A stretch of 64,000 nucleotides of DNA. Origin: Flavobacterium bernardetii (GTDB lineage Bacteria; Bacteroidota; Bacteroidia; Flavobacteriales; Flavobacteriaceae). The notes under the pieces were generated by a model. The model saw nothing but the letters and a program-made list of their open reading frames with translations. It was not told where the DNA came from and did no database searches. The number at the start of each line of letters is the position of its first letter. Positions within the stretch are counted from its first letter, which is position 1. The stretch covers positions 62,001 through 126,000 of the forward strand of contig NZ_JAANOQ010000007.1 of NCBI RefSeq assembly GCF_011305415.1, read 5' to 3'. A program made the position numbers and the translations under genes. This document shows, piece after piece, positions 33,475 through 55,959 of this stretch.

Positions 33475-33493
33475 ATTTTAAAGATTGTGTTGA

Positions 33494-33774
33494 TAGGCAC
33501 GCCGATTTGAAGGATTTGAAAGATTTACAATTTGGGATTTACGAATTACGATTGGATTATGAGATGCTTCGACAAGCTCAGCATGACAAGATTGTGGGTA
33601 AGTTGGAGTTAATAGGCACGCAGATTAAAAGGATTTGAAGGATTAACAATTTGGGATTTACGAATTACGATTGGATTATGAATTGCTTCGGCAAGTTCAG
33701 CATGACAAGATTGTGGGTAAGTTGGAGTTAATAGGCACGCAGATTAAAAGGATTTGAAGGATTTATTTGAGTTG
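33494..33774. repeat. 119-bp tandem repeat, about 2.4 copies
   Basis: Marker TAGGCAC occurs at 33494, 33613 and 33732, exactly 119 bases apart. Copies one and two are full and nearly identical in their second halves (TTTGGGATTTACGAATTACG; CAGCATGACAAGATTGTGGG); the third is cut after about 43 bases. The unit contains CTTCGACAAGCTCAGCATGA, of which a relative sits inside bioF. No coding potential is seen. Confidence 0.9.
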
Positions 33775-33953: not shown

Positions 33954-33987
33954 AAAAAAATCCCAACCTGTTGCCAAGTTGGGATTT
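33954..33987 (-). terminator. Terminator of the delta-60 repeat protein gene
   Basis: AAATCCCAAC (33958-33967) pairs with GTTGGGATTT (33978-33987); on the minus strand it is followed by seven T. The core 27 bases recur exactly at 36851-36877. Confidence 0.85.
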
Positions 33988-36846: not shown

Positions 36847-36877
36847 TAAAAATCCCAACCTGTTGCCAAGTTGGGAT
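36847..36877 (-). terminator. Terminator of the 1,612-residue T9SS gene (second copy)
   Basis: The same hairpin as at 33958-33987, with identical stem and loop (AATCCCAACC then TGTTGCCAAGTTGGGATT), lies 40 bases past the stop codon; minus-strand T run is short. Confidence 0.75.
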
Positions 36878-36916
36878 TAATTATATGAGTTATAAATCAT
36901 CTTACTTATTTTATAC

Positions 36917-50813: not shown

Positions 50814-52328
<1,515 letters not shown>

Positions 52329-52442: not shown

Positions 52443-52484
52443 AAAAAGCGAAATAACTAATATTTAGCTTTTTTAGGTTATTCT
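52443..52484. repeat. Direct repeat copy A (glmS-end/terminator duplicate)
   Basis: Forty-two bases that match 54077-54118 at 40 positions (differences at 52457 and 52466). This copy stands 41 bases downstream of the ABC ATPase stop, and includes a weakened form of the glmS terminator hairpin plus the complement of the glmS end, TTATTCT. It probably still terminates the ABC transcript. Confidence 0.9.
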
Positions 52485-52525
52485 GAGTAGTAGATTTTGA
52501 GAGAATTGGTGACTTTTAAATTTAT

Positions 52526-53167
52526 TTACACAAAAAGAGTCTCTTCAATTAAATTAAAATTTTGTTTTTCAAATTTTACAACTGTTTTATTATTTAGTAC
52601 AAAAATTTCTAAACAATTTGCATATAATATTTCCATGATATGCGACGAAATTATAATTACACTATTTTGGGCTTGTTTTTTTAAAAACTGAATTAATATA
52701 AAATTAGACTCTAAGTCTAATCCATTAAATGGTTCGTCTAAAAAATAAACTGGATAAGCTTTTTGAAAGACTGCATTTAAATATACTTTCTTTTTCATTC
52801 CTGTTGAAAACTCTCGTATTAATTTATCTTTTGGAATTTCAAACAATAAATTATTAGCATTGGTTTTATTCTTTTTAACATCTAACAATTTCCTGTAAAA
52901 ATCATAAAATTCATCGGAAGTTAATTCACCATAAACCGAAGGTTCAGTAGGACACCATGCCACATTTTGCTTTTTAATGTTTTCTGAATTAAATGTACAT
53001 GTTCCTGTGAATTTTTCTAAACCTAATACACATTTAAACAAAGTAGTTTTTCCTTGTCCGTTTTTACCAACTAAACCGAAAATACCAGGTTTGTCAATAT
53101 TAATAGTTATGTTTTTAAGAAGTATTTCTTGAGTAAATTTCTTTTCTTTTATATTAATTGCTAACAT
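52526..53167 (-). CDS. ABC transporter ATP-binding protein
   Basis: A 213-residue ABC ATPase. Walker A is GLVGKNGQGKTTLFK (about 32-46), the signature is REFSTGMKKKVYLNAV (an exporter-type FSTGMKKK variant of LSGGQ), Walker B is PVYFLDEPFNGLD, and the switch histidine lies in VIIISSHIME. The Q-loop is around VAWCPTEPSVYGE. It is short but has all nucleotide-site elements. It overlaps the membrane gene upstream by 14 bases. Signature variants like this occur in small exporters, antibiotic/bacteriocin immunity and gliding-related ABC systems; the substrate is unknown. Both genes are enclosed by direct repeats. Confidence 0.92.
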   Translation of the reverse strand: MLAINIKEKKFTQEILLKNITINIDKPGIFGLVGKNGQGKTTLFKCVLGLEKFTGTCTFNSENIKKQNVAWCPTEPSVYGELTSDEFYDFYRKLLDVKKNKTNANNLLFEIPKDKLIREFSTGMKKKVYLNAVFQKAYPVYFLDEPFNGLDLESNFILIQFLKKQAQNSVIIISSHIMEILYANCLEIFVLNNKTVVKFEKQNFNLIEETLFV

Positions 53168-54059
53168 ACTTAATTGAGTTTAGGCTTGAAATTGCCTTTT
53201 TATAAAAATATGGAATTAGTAACATAGGCAAACCAAATAACGAAATTAACAAAACCACAAATATTGCAAAAACCAACTGTTGTAGCATAATGTTATTAAA
53301 ATAAATATATTTCAGAAGGGTTGCAGTAATCGAAATTACAAAAACAGGAAGAAAATAAACTAACATTTCCAAATTTAAAATTAAAAAAAGAAACATTGCA
53401 GGAAACAAAACAAAAGAAGAATTAATTAAAGTGTTTTTCAGCTGAAAAAACAAATATTTTTCAGAATTAAATGGGCTTATTATTATTTCTTCTGTGTTTT
53501 CTCTTTCAAAAGTTGCAATAATCGAAACTAAAGTAAGTAACAATAACCCAAAAAATAAAACGTTCTCGTTTTTATGCAAATAATAGATATAACAAAGCGT
53601 AAAAATTATGGGATAAACAAAAAGCAATTTATGTTTTCTAAAACTAATGTGCCAAAACACATTAAAAAGATCAAAAGGATATGAAATAATTTTAAATGAA
53701 AGTTTTGGTAAATTGATTAAAATAATATTTAAAAGCAAAAAAACTACAATATACAACCACTCGAGTTTTAAAAACAATACAATTATATAAGGCAACAAAT
53801 AAAATATATATTCAAAAAAAAGAATGACTTTATAATTTTTACTAAGCTTTAAAAAAGAAGAATCGACTCGGTTTGCATTAAAAGCAACAACATCGAAAAA
53901 ACATAAAAATATATAATTTTTATATTCTTCAAAATAATAATAAAAAAATAAAGCCCCTAAAGAATGTAATAATAACAATAAAAAATAAGCTAAATAATCA
54001 TCTTTTGAAACCCATTTTCTCAATCTGATTACTAGTAAATATTTTAATATTTGTAACAC
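53154..54059 (-). CDS. Polytopic membrane protein, probable ABC permease
   Basis: A 301-residue, very hydrophobic protein with roughly eight membrane segments (for example YFLLLLLHSLGALFFYYYF, YIIVLFLKLEWLYIVVFLLL and VFAIFVVLLISLFGLPMLLI). It starts at GTG, only 17 bases behind the glmS terminator, with no ATG available nearby. It shows no recognised permease signature, but its 14-base overlap with the ATPase gene makes it the likely membrane half of the transporter. There is no room for a normal promoter between the terminator and the start, so expression may depend on read-through from glmS. Codon use is very A+T rich. Confidence 0.75.
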   Translation of the reverse strand: MLQILKYLLVIRLRKWVSKDDYLAYFLLLLLHSLGALFFYYYFEEYKNYIFLCFFDVVAFNANRVDSSFLKLSKNYKVILFFEYIFYLLPYIIVLFLKLEWLYIVVFLLLNIILINLPKLSFKIISYPFDLFNVFWHISFRKHKLLFVYPIIFTLCYIYYLHKNENVLFFGLLLLTLVSIIATFERENTEEIIISPFNSEKYLFFQLKNTLINSSFVLFPAMFLFLILNLEMLVYFLPVFVISITATLLKYIYFNNIMLQQLVFAIFVVLLISLFGLPMLLIPYFYKKAISSLNSIKYVSN

Positions 54060-54076
54060 TTTTATATTTTAAATAT

Positions 54077-54118
54077 AAAAAGCGAAATAATTAATATTTC
54101 GCTTTTTTAGGTTATTCT
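54077..54118 (-). terminator. glmS terminator and direct repeat copy B
   Basis: AAAAAGCGAAATA (54077-54089) pairs perfectly with TATTTCGCTTTTT (54095-54107), five-base loop, and is flanked by T on the minus strand and A on the plus. The last seven bases belong to glmS. The whole 42 bases recur at 52443-52484. Confidence 0.9.
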
Positions 54119-55959
54119 ACGGTCACTGATTTTGCCAAATTCCTAGGCTGATCCACATTACAACCTCTTAATACTGCAATATGATAGGATAACAATTGCA
54201 ATGGAATTGTAGTTAATAATGGCGTTAACGCTTCTGAAGTTTCTGGAATTTCAATTACGTGATCTGCTAAAGCTTTCACTTGCGTGTCTCCTTTAGTGAC
54301 TACGGCAATAATTTTTCCGCTTCTTGATTTTATTTCTTGAATATTACTTACAACTTTGTCGTAATGTCCTTTATTTGGCGCAATAACTATAACTGGCATT
54401 TGTTCGTCAATTAAGGCAATTGGTCCGTGCTTCATTTCTGCAGCTGGATAACCTTCTGCGTGAATGTATGAAATCTCTTTTAATTTCAATGCTCCTTCTA
54501 AAGCTACTGGAAAATTAAATCCACGACCCAAATACAAAGCATTTGGCACATCTTTATAAATTTCAGCTATTTGTTTAGCAACATCATTAGTCTGTAAAGC
54601 TTCTTGTACTTTTTCAGGAATCATTTCTAATTCTAACAAATAACGTTGGTAATCAGATTGATTCATCGTTCCTTTTGCTTTTGCTAAACGTAAAGCAATA
54701 AGTGTCAGAATTGTAATTTGAGTTGTAAATGCTTTTGTTGAAGCCACACCAATTTCTGGTCCAGCATGCGTATAAGCACCTGCATCAGTTTCTCTAGAAA
54801 TAGAAGAACCCACTACATTACACACTCCAAAAACAAACGCTCCGTTTTCTTTCGCTAATTTTATGGCTGCTAAAGTATCAGCTGTTTCTCCAGATTGCGA
54901 AATTGCAATTACTACATCATCTTTATTTATAATCGGATTTCTGTATCTGAATTCTGAAGCATATTCTACTTCAACAGGAATTCTTGCAAATTCTTCGATA
55001 ACATATTCAGCAACTAAACCGGCATGCCAAGAAGTTCCACAAGCGATAATTAGAATTCGTTTCGCATTCGTGAATTTTTCTAAATTATCTTCTACGCCAG
55101 ACATTTGAATAATGCCTTTGTTAGCCAATAATCTTCCTCTATAAGTATCTTTAATTACGTTAGGTTGTTCGTAAATTTCTTTTAACATGAAATGTTCGTA
55201 ACCTCCTTTTTCGATTTGCTCTAAATTCATTTGCAATTCTTGAACGTAAGGGTCTACTAAAGAATCATCTTTAATTTTACGAACTTTCATTGGTTTATTC
55301 AAACGAATAATTGCCATTTCTTCATCTTCTAAATAAATAGCATTTGAAGTAAATTCAATAAACGGAGAGGCGTCTGAAGCAACGAAATATTCATCTTCAC
55401 CAATACCAATTGCTAAAGGCGAACCTAAACGTGCACAAACTAATTCGTCTGGCTTGTTTACATCGAATACCACAATTGCATAAGCTCCAACAACTTGATT
55501 TAAGGCAACTTGAACTGCTTTTCCTAATTTTAAATTATCTGTTTTCTGAACATCTTCAATTAAGTTAATTAAAACTTCAGTATCTGTATCAGAATGAAAA
55601 ACATACCCTCTTTTAATTAATTCTTTTTTTAATGGCTCATAATTTTCAATAATCCCATTATGAACAATTGCTAATTTTCCAGAATTTGAAAAATGTGGAT
55701 GCGAGTTTACATCATTTGGTACACCATGAGTAGCCCAACGTGTATGTCCAAATCCAATATGTCCTTCTGTAGATATTTCTTTAGCAACTTTTTCTTCTAA
55801 ATCGGAAACTTTCCCTTTAGTTTTACAAAGTTTCAAATCTTTACCATCATATAAAACAAGACCAGCACTATCGTATCCACGATATTCTAATCTTTTTAAT
55901 CCTTTAATAATAATTGGATATGCTTCTCTATGACCAATATAACCTACGATTCCACACAT
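54112..55959 (-). CDS. glmS: Glutamine--fructose-6-phosphate aminotransferase
   Basis: A 615-residue enzyme making glucosamine-6-phosphate, the first step to UDP-GlcNAc for peptidoglycan and lipopolysaccharide. The N-terminal glutaminase uses Cys1 (after Met removal) in MCGIVGYIG; GHTRWATHGVPNDVNSHPH and the HNGIIENY loop are also conserved. Two SIS sugar-isomerase domains follow (about 290-420 and 460-600), with CGTSWHAGLVAEY and the C-terminal PRNLAKSVTVE. It follows the DUF4270 gene by 12 bases. Its end has been duplicated behind the ABC module. Confidence 0.98.
   Translation of the reverse strand: MCGIVGYIGHREAYPIIIKGLKRLEYRGYDSAGLVLYDGKDLKLCKTKGKVSDLEEKVAKEISTEGHIGFGHTRWATHGVPNDVNSHPHFSNSGKLAIVHNGIIENYEPLKKELIKRGYVFHSDTDTEVLINLIEDVQKTDNLKLGKAVQVALNQVVGAYAIVVFDVNKPDELVCARLGSPLAIGIGEDEYFVASDASPFIEFTSNAIYLEDEEMAIIRLNKPMKVRKIKDDSLVDPYVQELQMNLEQIEKGGYEHFMLKEIYEQPNVIKDTYRGRLLANKGIIQMSGVEDNLEKFTNAKRILIIACGTSWHAGLVAEYVIEEFARIPVEVEYASEFRYRNPIINKDDVVIAISQSGETADTLAAIKLAKENGAFVFGVCNVVGSSISRETDAGAYTHAGPEIGVASTKAFTTQITILTLIALRLAKAKGTMNQSDYQRYLLELEMIPEKVQEALQTNDVAKQIAEIYKDVPNALYLGRGFNFPVALEGALKLKEISYIHAEGYPAAEMKHGPIALIDEQMPVIVIAPNKGHYDKVVSNIQEIKSRSGKIIAVVTKGDTQVKALADHVIEIPETSEALTPLLTTIPLQLLSYHIAVLRGCNVDQPRNLAKSVTVE

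Follow-up and report, generated by a model that had tools for sequence, protein, structure and literature searches.

The stretch of Flavobacterium bernardetii DNA considered here raises the question of how a predicted two-gene ATP-binding cassette (ABC) exporter came to stand between glmS and atpD, and what such an exporter might do there. The window, meaning the whole 64,000 nucleotides analysed (contig NZ_JAANOQ010000007.1, positions 62,001 to 126,000), carries on its minus strand glmS, the stop codon and terminator of that gene, a permease, an ABC ATPase, the glmS tail once more and finally atpD (Table 1). The answer towards which we lean, with reserve, is that a foreign two-gene ABC exporter was captured behind glmS with copying of the target, and that it acts as an orphan immunity pump. 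In what follows, G000 denotes the window's own genome (3.39 Mb), other G labels denote relatives from the genus, and L labels denote loci.

Table 1. Features of the glmS-atpD locus in the window and of comparable insertions elsewhere (ORF, open reading frame)
Feature	Position	Strand	Remarks
glmS (glutamine-fructose-6-phosphate aminotransferase)	54112-55959	-	615-aa ORF; 3' end duplicated
Repeat copy 1: glmS terminator hairpin with the last Glu codon and the stop codon	54077-54118	-	40/42 against copy 2; -14.1 kcal/mol
Inserted DNA between the repeat copies	52485-54076		23.3% GC against 31.6% in the window; missing in 25/29 relatives
ABC permease, 301 aa, GTG start	53154-54059	-	ORF; C-terminal half appears to resemble the ABC-2 type (NosY, CcmB)
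ABC ATPase, 213 aa	52526-53167	-	PF00005, 62.6 bits; 14-base overlap with the permease
Repeat copy 2: glmS 3' end and terminator, closing the ABC pair	52443-52484	-	continuous with the atpD upstream region
atpD, downstream neighbour of glmS	50814-52325	-	ORF; adjoins glmS in empty sites
Insertion in G000: one gene, NHL repeats and Por_Secre_tail	C35:32786-34542		copies 49/50; empty in G166
Insertion in G000: 4.75-kb island	C1:263334-268198 (L237 3334-8198)		copies 112/121, 118-bp ABC-F gene tail; empty in G090, G081, G039
Insertion in G000: 1437-aa ORF and smaller ones	C1:277562-284477		copies 53/58, glycosyltransferase gene tail; empty in G166, G039, G081
Insertion in G166, weaker case: one 592-aa ORF			copies 35/39
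Insertion in G166: 18.3-kb tRNA-gene island (L192, L193)	G166:C8:657654-675949		46/46 copy of the tRNA 3' end

The layout described in the original prediction was confirmed. The two copies of the glmS tail are identical at 40 of 42 bases (48/52 in a gapped alignment, 55 nt at 85% when extended without gaps), and the right-hand copy includes the last glutamate codon, the stop codon and the terminator of glmS. The 1.6 kb between them holds only a membrane protein and an ABC ATPase, overlapping by 14 bases, these being the only two coding-strand ORFs of at least 60 aa, and the permease starts, at a GTG codon, 17 bases past the repeat. This repeat comes close to a perfect palindrome; the glmS-side copy, which contains GAATAA (last Glu codon and stop), has a hairpin of -14.1 kcal/mol and the atpD-side copy one of -10.1 kcal/mol. 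In a self-comparison of the window the pair ranks second among direct repeats, behind a local tandem duplication. When a 66-bp tail query was run against the whole genome, strong matches occurred at two places only (E 1.7e-28 and 1.8e-14), together with reverse matches to the query's own palindromes (E 1.6e-5 and 6.6e-4). No third copy was found in the genome, all remaining matches having E values of 0.004 or worse, and a common terminator family standing behind many genes was thus ruled out as the source of the repeat.

The module is missing from most of the nearest relatives. The glmS 3' DNA was compared with 398 genomes of the genus, and the best 30 loci, less the window's own, gave a set of 29 with glmS 3' identities of 82-91%. 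In 25 of them the site is cleanly empty and consists of glmS, one terminator and atpD, with a gap of 152-156 bp. The remaining four are G391 and G400, where a receptor-like gene, the usual state in the genus, starts within the 1.5 kb viewed behind glmS; G425, where the contig ends; and G081, which carries other cargo. A third filled site could not be confirmed in G425, whose contig ends 98 bp behind glmS; this assembly is 75% complete and atpD was not found in it. In another set of 29 loci, partly the same and selected by GlmS protein rank, atpD lies within 1.5 kb in 15, and the other 14 comprise G081, one locus that is too short, 11 in which a receptor-like gene begins and one with another gene. 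When the window flanks are joined across the insert, the resulting sequence aligns across the empty sites in G166 and G039, with no interruption other than small gaps and the usual divergence.

At the same site, G081 has an ORF of 1069 aa with what seems to be a signal peptide and with fn3, DUF7619 and Por_Secre_tail sorting domains. This cargo is framed by its own copy of the glmS tail, matching at 33 of 34 bases from GAATAA onward, and the duplications in G000 and G081 start at the same point, the last glmS codon. The clean empty site with a single repeat copy, found in 25 of the 29 relatives, and the alternative cargo in G081 bear out the earlier proposal that a small module was inserted at this place and the target duplicated; the opposite case, in which all relatives would hold the ABC genes and both repeats, was not encountered. 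Since direct copies would permit clean loss, it could be argued that the empty sites are themselves derived, an older, clade-wide ABC insertion having been removed by recombination between the copies. This is scarcely credible, as the empty sites extend across the whole range of glmS identities, G081 holds a different cargo, and the two G000 copies are closer to each other than to the tail of any relative. They differ at 2 of 35 compared bases, and show 4 to 9 differences from eight other sequences. The copied tail therefore looks like the recipient's own, clearly so in G000 and less so in G081, where support is weak because the glmS-side copy differs from its partner at 2 of 35 bases and is equally close (two differences) to G261.

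A larger sample shows other states of the interval. In 16 of 20 wider intervals, chosen by the authors, the glmS-atpD gap measures 4.7-5.0 kb and holds an ORF of 929-983 aa that reads as receptor-like, followed by a second ORF, of 488-524 aa, that reads as lipoprotein-like; in the remaining four it measures 153 bp, 335 bp, 3.4 kb and 9.4 kb. Since the 4.7-5.0 kb state occurs in much of the genus, the interval is variable within it, and the branch of the window appears to have been in the short state before the ABC pair arrived. In the 9.4-kb interval (L106, from G033) there are two large ORFs and a gene for a metallopeptidase M90, and next to atpD stands a terminator of the empty-site kind.

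The inserted DNA looks foreign. The permease and the ATPase have the lowest GC content among the 38 mechanically listed window ORFs of at least 190 aa. Among 199 genus genomes, with the window's own counted in, glmS is present in 194 and the permease in 13, and the full-length permease matches in the others share 33-47% identity. Neither glmS nor atpD was found in 13 homolog stretches (5-16 kb, from 12 other genus genomes), nor at 27 loci with the permease obtained from a scan of named genomes. Twenty-four of these named loci are labelled Flavobacterium, Flavobacteriaceae or Myroides, and three are metagenome-assembled Bacteroidetes. The ATPase directly follows the permease in 27/27, and the two genes are one evolutionary unit, as judged from this synteny. 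In three Flavobacterium genomes (L154, L156 and L157) the homologous pair adjoins atpG, another ATP synthase gene. Carriage of the permease by plasmids or viruses was considered and rejected: 72,556 plasmid records gave no match, and of 71 viral stretches that matched the search pattern none was confirmed.

These distributions also bear on the view that the pair performs housekeeping or cell-wall work tied to GlmS and was placed behind glmS for co-expression. The pair does run in the same direction as glmS, and the exact box TAnnTTTG (the Flavobacterium -7 promoter motif) was not found in the 121 bases upstream of the permease, which hold TATATTTA, one base off this motif. The missing box says little, because two of three other cargo genes checked (those with NHL and DUF5122 domains) likewise lack it; the G081 cargo has TATATTTG ahead of its start. 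Read-through transcription of the pair from glmS is possible. A functional tie to GlmS is nevertheless very improbable, being largely refuted by synteny: the homologs stand away from glmS and atpD at all 13 stretches and 27 named loci, and the permease is confined to 13 of 199 genomes.

How the DNA entered is a separate matter, and the entry route is unproven. The 3' end of glmS recalls Tn7, which inserts at attTn7 downstream of glmS and makes a target duplication of 5 bp. The likeness is one of place only: no tnsABC(D/E) genes were found in the insert, the best inverted pair across its ends is formed by the two terminators themselves, with no transposon end repeats, and the copied target is 42 bp long instead of a short duplication. 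The hint of a Tn7-like element in the original prediction was therefore discarded.

An integrase-type island would resemble the locus more closely, in that a copy of a gene 3' end lies beyond the cargo, the function of the gene is kept and relatives have a clean empty site. The 42-bp copies could thus be attL and attR of a tyrosine recombinase acting at the glmS 3' end, either in trans or encoded by a gene since lost, an explanation that is possible though doubtful. Islands that rebuild a 3' end look alike, and a classic-looking case occurs in G166, where the 18.3-kb tRNA-gene island has a 46/46 copy and one ORF resembling a tyrosine recombinase. Two different cargos at the one glmS site, both with copies running from GAATAA, would fit as well, as would the palindromic repeat, the core sites of recombinases often being palindromic. 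Set against this, the cargo measures only 1.6 kb, no integrase or other recombinase was found in it, and the one large ORF in the G081 cargo lacks an integrase domain. The element-side half of the copy carries each species' own non-coding bases (AACCT in G000, AACAC in G081), which would be unexpected for an element fresh from another species. The tails copied at other sites share no evident sequence with it or with one another, and the copies as a whole range in length from 34 to about 118 bp, so that one enzyme per target would be needed.

Those other sites emerged when 626 kb of G000 were compared with the corresponding regions in G166. The comparison yielded 36 clean insertions of at least 300 bp, 23 in G000 and 13 in G166, of which ten have an overlap of at least 30 bp at the empty site. 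In six of the ten (four in G000, two in G166) the copies are about 90% alike or better; in the other four they are 72-78% alike and were not counted as scars. A repeat scan of the same 626 kb gave 21 rows, six of which were examined, the other 15 being tandem arrays and coding pieces; the pair C1:322769-322843/325543-325617 was dropped for want of a clean single-copy empty site. Besides the glmS case there are three further insertions in G000, with tail copies of 47-118 bp and empty sites in relatives, and no recombinase was recognised in any of the three, family models having covered only the 119-aa ORF in the case of C1:277562-284477.

The island behind the ABC-F gene has five ORFs, one of them encoding a WYL-domain protein, and is possibly a defence island, although PADLOC matches were confined to the WYL-domain protein. 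At this site, where five of seven matching genomes were compared (L249 and L250 were left out), the second copy has the base of G000's own version at most of the positions that vary among relatives, and at one position that of G039 and G166. In G166 and G261 the same site holds other cargo, and that of G166 is preceded by a piece 75-78% similar to the ABC-F tail and donor-like in appearance. For the glycosyltransferase site a match was obtained in three of eight genomes, all three empty.

Entry was probably independent of a recombinase borne by the cargo, because the same layout recurs at unrelated targets in the same genome. The preferred reading is that the DNA was captured by cells that were taking up DNA, either where breaks were staggered or through template switching. 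Target copying would have kept glmS intact and given a terminator both to it and to the newcomer, and such an insertion may survive because the copied stretch restores gene and terminator. Two observations weigh against this reading: the G081 copy is as close to G261 as to its partner, and 26 of the 36 clean insertions have an overlap below 30 bp. As most clean insertions have no long copies, it is a minority process. Capture by Ku-dependent non-homologous end joining is unlikely, since Ku (PF02735) gave no match in any of eight genomes, G000 included, while the Bacillus subtilis control was positive.

It would go further to propose an undescribed, cargo-independent capture process that places modules of 1.6-7 kb into gene 3' ends and copies 34-118 bp of the recipient's own target, a suggestion that we put forward as rather unlikely. 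In outcome such a process would resemble Cas1-type integration, which duplicates repeats. Equally speculative is its extension, in which such a process, with cargo free of CRISPR (clustered regularly interspaced short palindromic repeats), transposase, integrase or Ku genes, would seed hotspots devoid of mobile elements. A search of the literature, mostly outside subscription journals, returned no description of such insertions at Flavobacterium glmS. According to one survey, half of the transfer hotspots lack evidence of mobile elements and 27% lack the mobility proteins searched for, and double homologous recombination at flanking core genes is suggested for them (PMC5635113). The glmS-atpD locus shares with these hotspots a variable core-gene interval without mobility genes, and differs in that insertion leaves target copies of 34-118 bp, which the double recombination model does not predict. 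The small insertions described here, with empty sites in relatives, different cargo at one place and a legible scar (a 34-118-bp gene-tail copy, mostly matching the recipient's own), make it testable how a first foreign gene enters a hotspot that has no recognised mobile element or integrase; the recurrence of such copies with no recognised recombinase merits a genome-wide test.

What the captured genes encode can be read in part from family models and structure. The ATPase matches PF00005 well above the cut-off of 25 bits, and the segments GKNGQGKTT, FSTGMKKK and LDEPFNGLD, which we take to be the Walker and signature motifs of an ABC ATPase, are largely conserved in 12 sequences. Its best NCBIfam matches all fall under their cut-offs, including that to the lantibiotic-protection model TIGR03740 (79.8 against 309.75), and matches to PADLOC mad3, AriA and others were set aside as generic ATPase similarity. 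The permease matched nothing in Pfam, NCBIfam, PHROG or PADLOC; its similarity to homologs starts at query residue 1 in most homolog rows. A sequence search returned no solved relative, the best match (E 0.22, a CLC antiporter) being taken as chance.

A permease model built from 23 aligned sequences has a predicted local distance difference test score (pLDDT) of 82.9 and a predicted template modelling score (pTM) of 0.59. Foldseek gave no significant match for it (best E 2.5). In VIA-align the first seven rows are all ABC permeases or pumps, among them NosY (Z 10.5), CcmB (8.5-8.7), a mycobacterial efflux pump (8.0) and Mce1 (5.8), and the first other row has a Z of 5.6; the tool itself cautions that values below about 13 may reflect a mere common arrangement in helical models. 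The C-terminal half of the modelled permease appears to resemble the ABC-2-type fold, residues 130-296 superposing on NosY over 166 residues at 3.5 Å. It differs from the NosFY and CcmAB systems in that sequence identity is 6-9%, residues 1-129 lie outside the matches, and no nos or ccm genes were seen around the window pair.

The neighbourhoods of the homologs suggest a role. An exporter with a C39 peptidase lies near the ABC pair in 13 of the 27 named loci, not counting L160 and L164, whose partial ABC-exporter matches (26-28%) were left out; one such exporter tested from these loci scored 126 bits with Peptidase_C39, and the 3.39 Mb of G000 contain a single full-length match. In 11 of the 27 (L146, L149, L150, L155, L159, L161, L163, L167, L168, L169 and L170) the permease is preceded, at a distance of 45-85 nt, by the end of a 43-49-residue peptide with a double-glycine (GG) leader. 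The cores of these peptides are short and hydrophobic, for example IIPLVIAVFLLWGTHxAY, and eight of the 11 end in GTHxAY; two that were tested had no Pfam match. Self-protection pumps are arranged in this way, with a dedicated ABC pair next to a peptide that already has an exporter. The window pair is therefore best read, from its sequence relatives, as an orphan of a bacteriocin-immunity-type exporter. Of the two roles named in the original prediction, self-immunity stands as the best guess, on the strength of the C39 and GG-peptide loci, and the cell-wall link does not, its homologs lying apart from glmS and atpD.

The self-protection ABC transporters of bacteriocin clusters, of the LanFEG type or such as Mr10EFGH (PMC10598978), are comparable in that an ATPase and a multi-pass permease stand beside the peptide gene at the homologous loci. 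The window ATPase scores with TIGR03740, far under its cut-off, and the permease matches no curated immunity-transporter model. LanE and LanG are two smaller permeases, whereas the window pair has a single permease of about 300 aa, which carries an additional membrane region at its N terminus. It also differs in having neither peptide nor exporter gene beside the pair, and in its Gram-negative host. Only 17 bases separate the repeat from the permease, with no GG peptide there, and a pattern scan of 644 kb of G000 found no GTHxAY-type peptide.

It may be supposed that an exporter of the GG-peptide-associated kind, after its capture between glmS and atpD, lost the peptide and C39 exporter or never brought them, and that the orphan pump, perhaps transcribed by read-through from glmS, would remove a neighbour's hydrophobic peptide from the inner membrane. 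Several observations weigh against this role. The nearest folds, those of NosY and CcmB, belong to proteins with other functions. Among the closest permease homologs (44-48% identity) are those of L144, L145, L147, L148 and L166, loci with neither peptide nor exporter, and peptide immunity is thus not established for the branch of the window. G000 also has an unrelated GG peptide and a C39 exporter of its own on contig C34, which the pump could serve instead.

The last point belongs to an alternative, namely that the pair acts as accessory exporter for a peptide with a signalling or antimicrobial role, here perhaps the proline-rich GG peptide of C34. The order peptide-permease-ATPase in 11 of the 27 loci would suit it, as would the presence in the same genome of both a C39 exporter and a GG peptide. 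We consider it unlikely, since the C39 exporters of the homolog loci should already cover processing and export, and the GG peptide of G000 differs in its core and is encoded on a separate contig. The C34 locus (L218, 8206-12655) encodes a C39-type exporter of 734 aa, a possible membrane-fusion partner for it of 444 aa and, in the opposite orientation, the proline-rich GG-leader peptide of 68 aa.

The cargo also leads to a family of short double-glycine peptides in Flavobacterium that have an ABC pair dedicated to them; under the preferred reading, pump copies left as orphans may render non-producers immune. One self-protection pump common to several bacteriocins is described for enterocins (PMC10598978).

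Direct repeats around the ABC pair could be sought at 26 of the 27 named loci. Repeats of 17 bp occur in L144, L145, L148 and L166, and repeats of 53-191 bp (81-94% identity) frame the pair in L155, L161, L163, L168 and L169; the 17 other testable loci have none. In L155, L161, L163 and L168 the repeats are probably duplicated peptide-gene regions and not the scar of a gene tail, because a second GG peptide coincides with the downstream copy.

Two further repeats were seen in the window. A terminator repeat matching at 31/31 bases (33956-33986 and 36848-36878) frames a single 889-aa gene with DUF5122 and Por_Secre_tail domains; no empty site was shown for it, and G166 carries at the same place a different ORF of 241 aa between similar terminators, one of them turned round. 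At 33489-33763, behind nuoN, there is a 156-bp direct repeat with 93.6% identity, an offset of 119 bp and a third partial copy.

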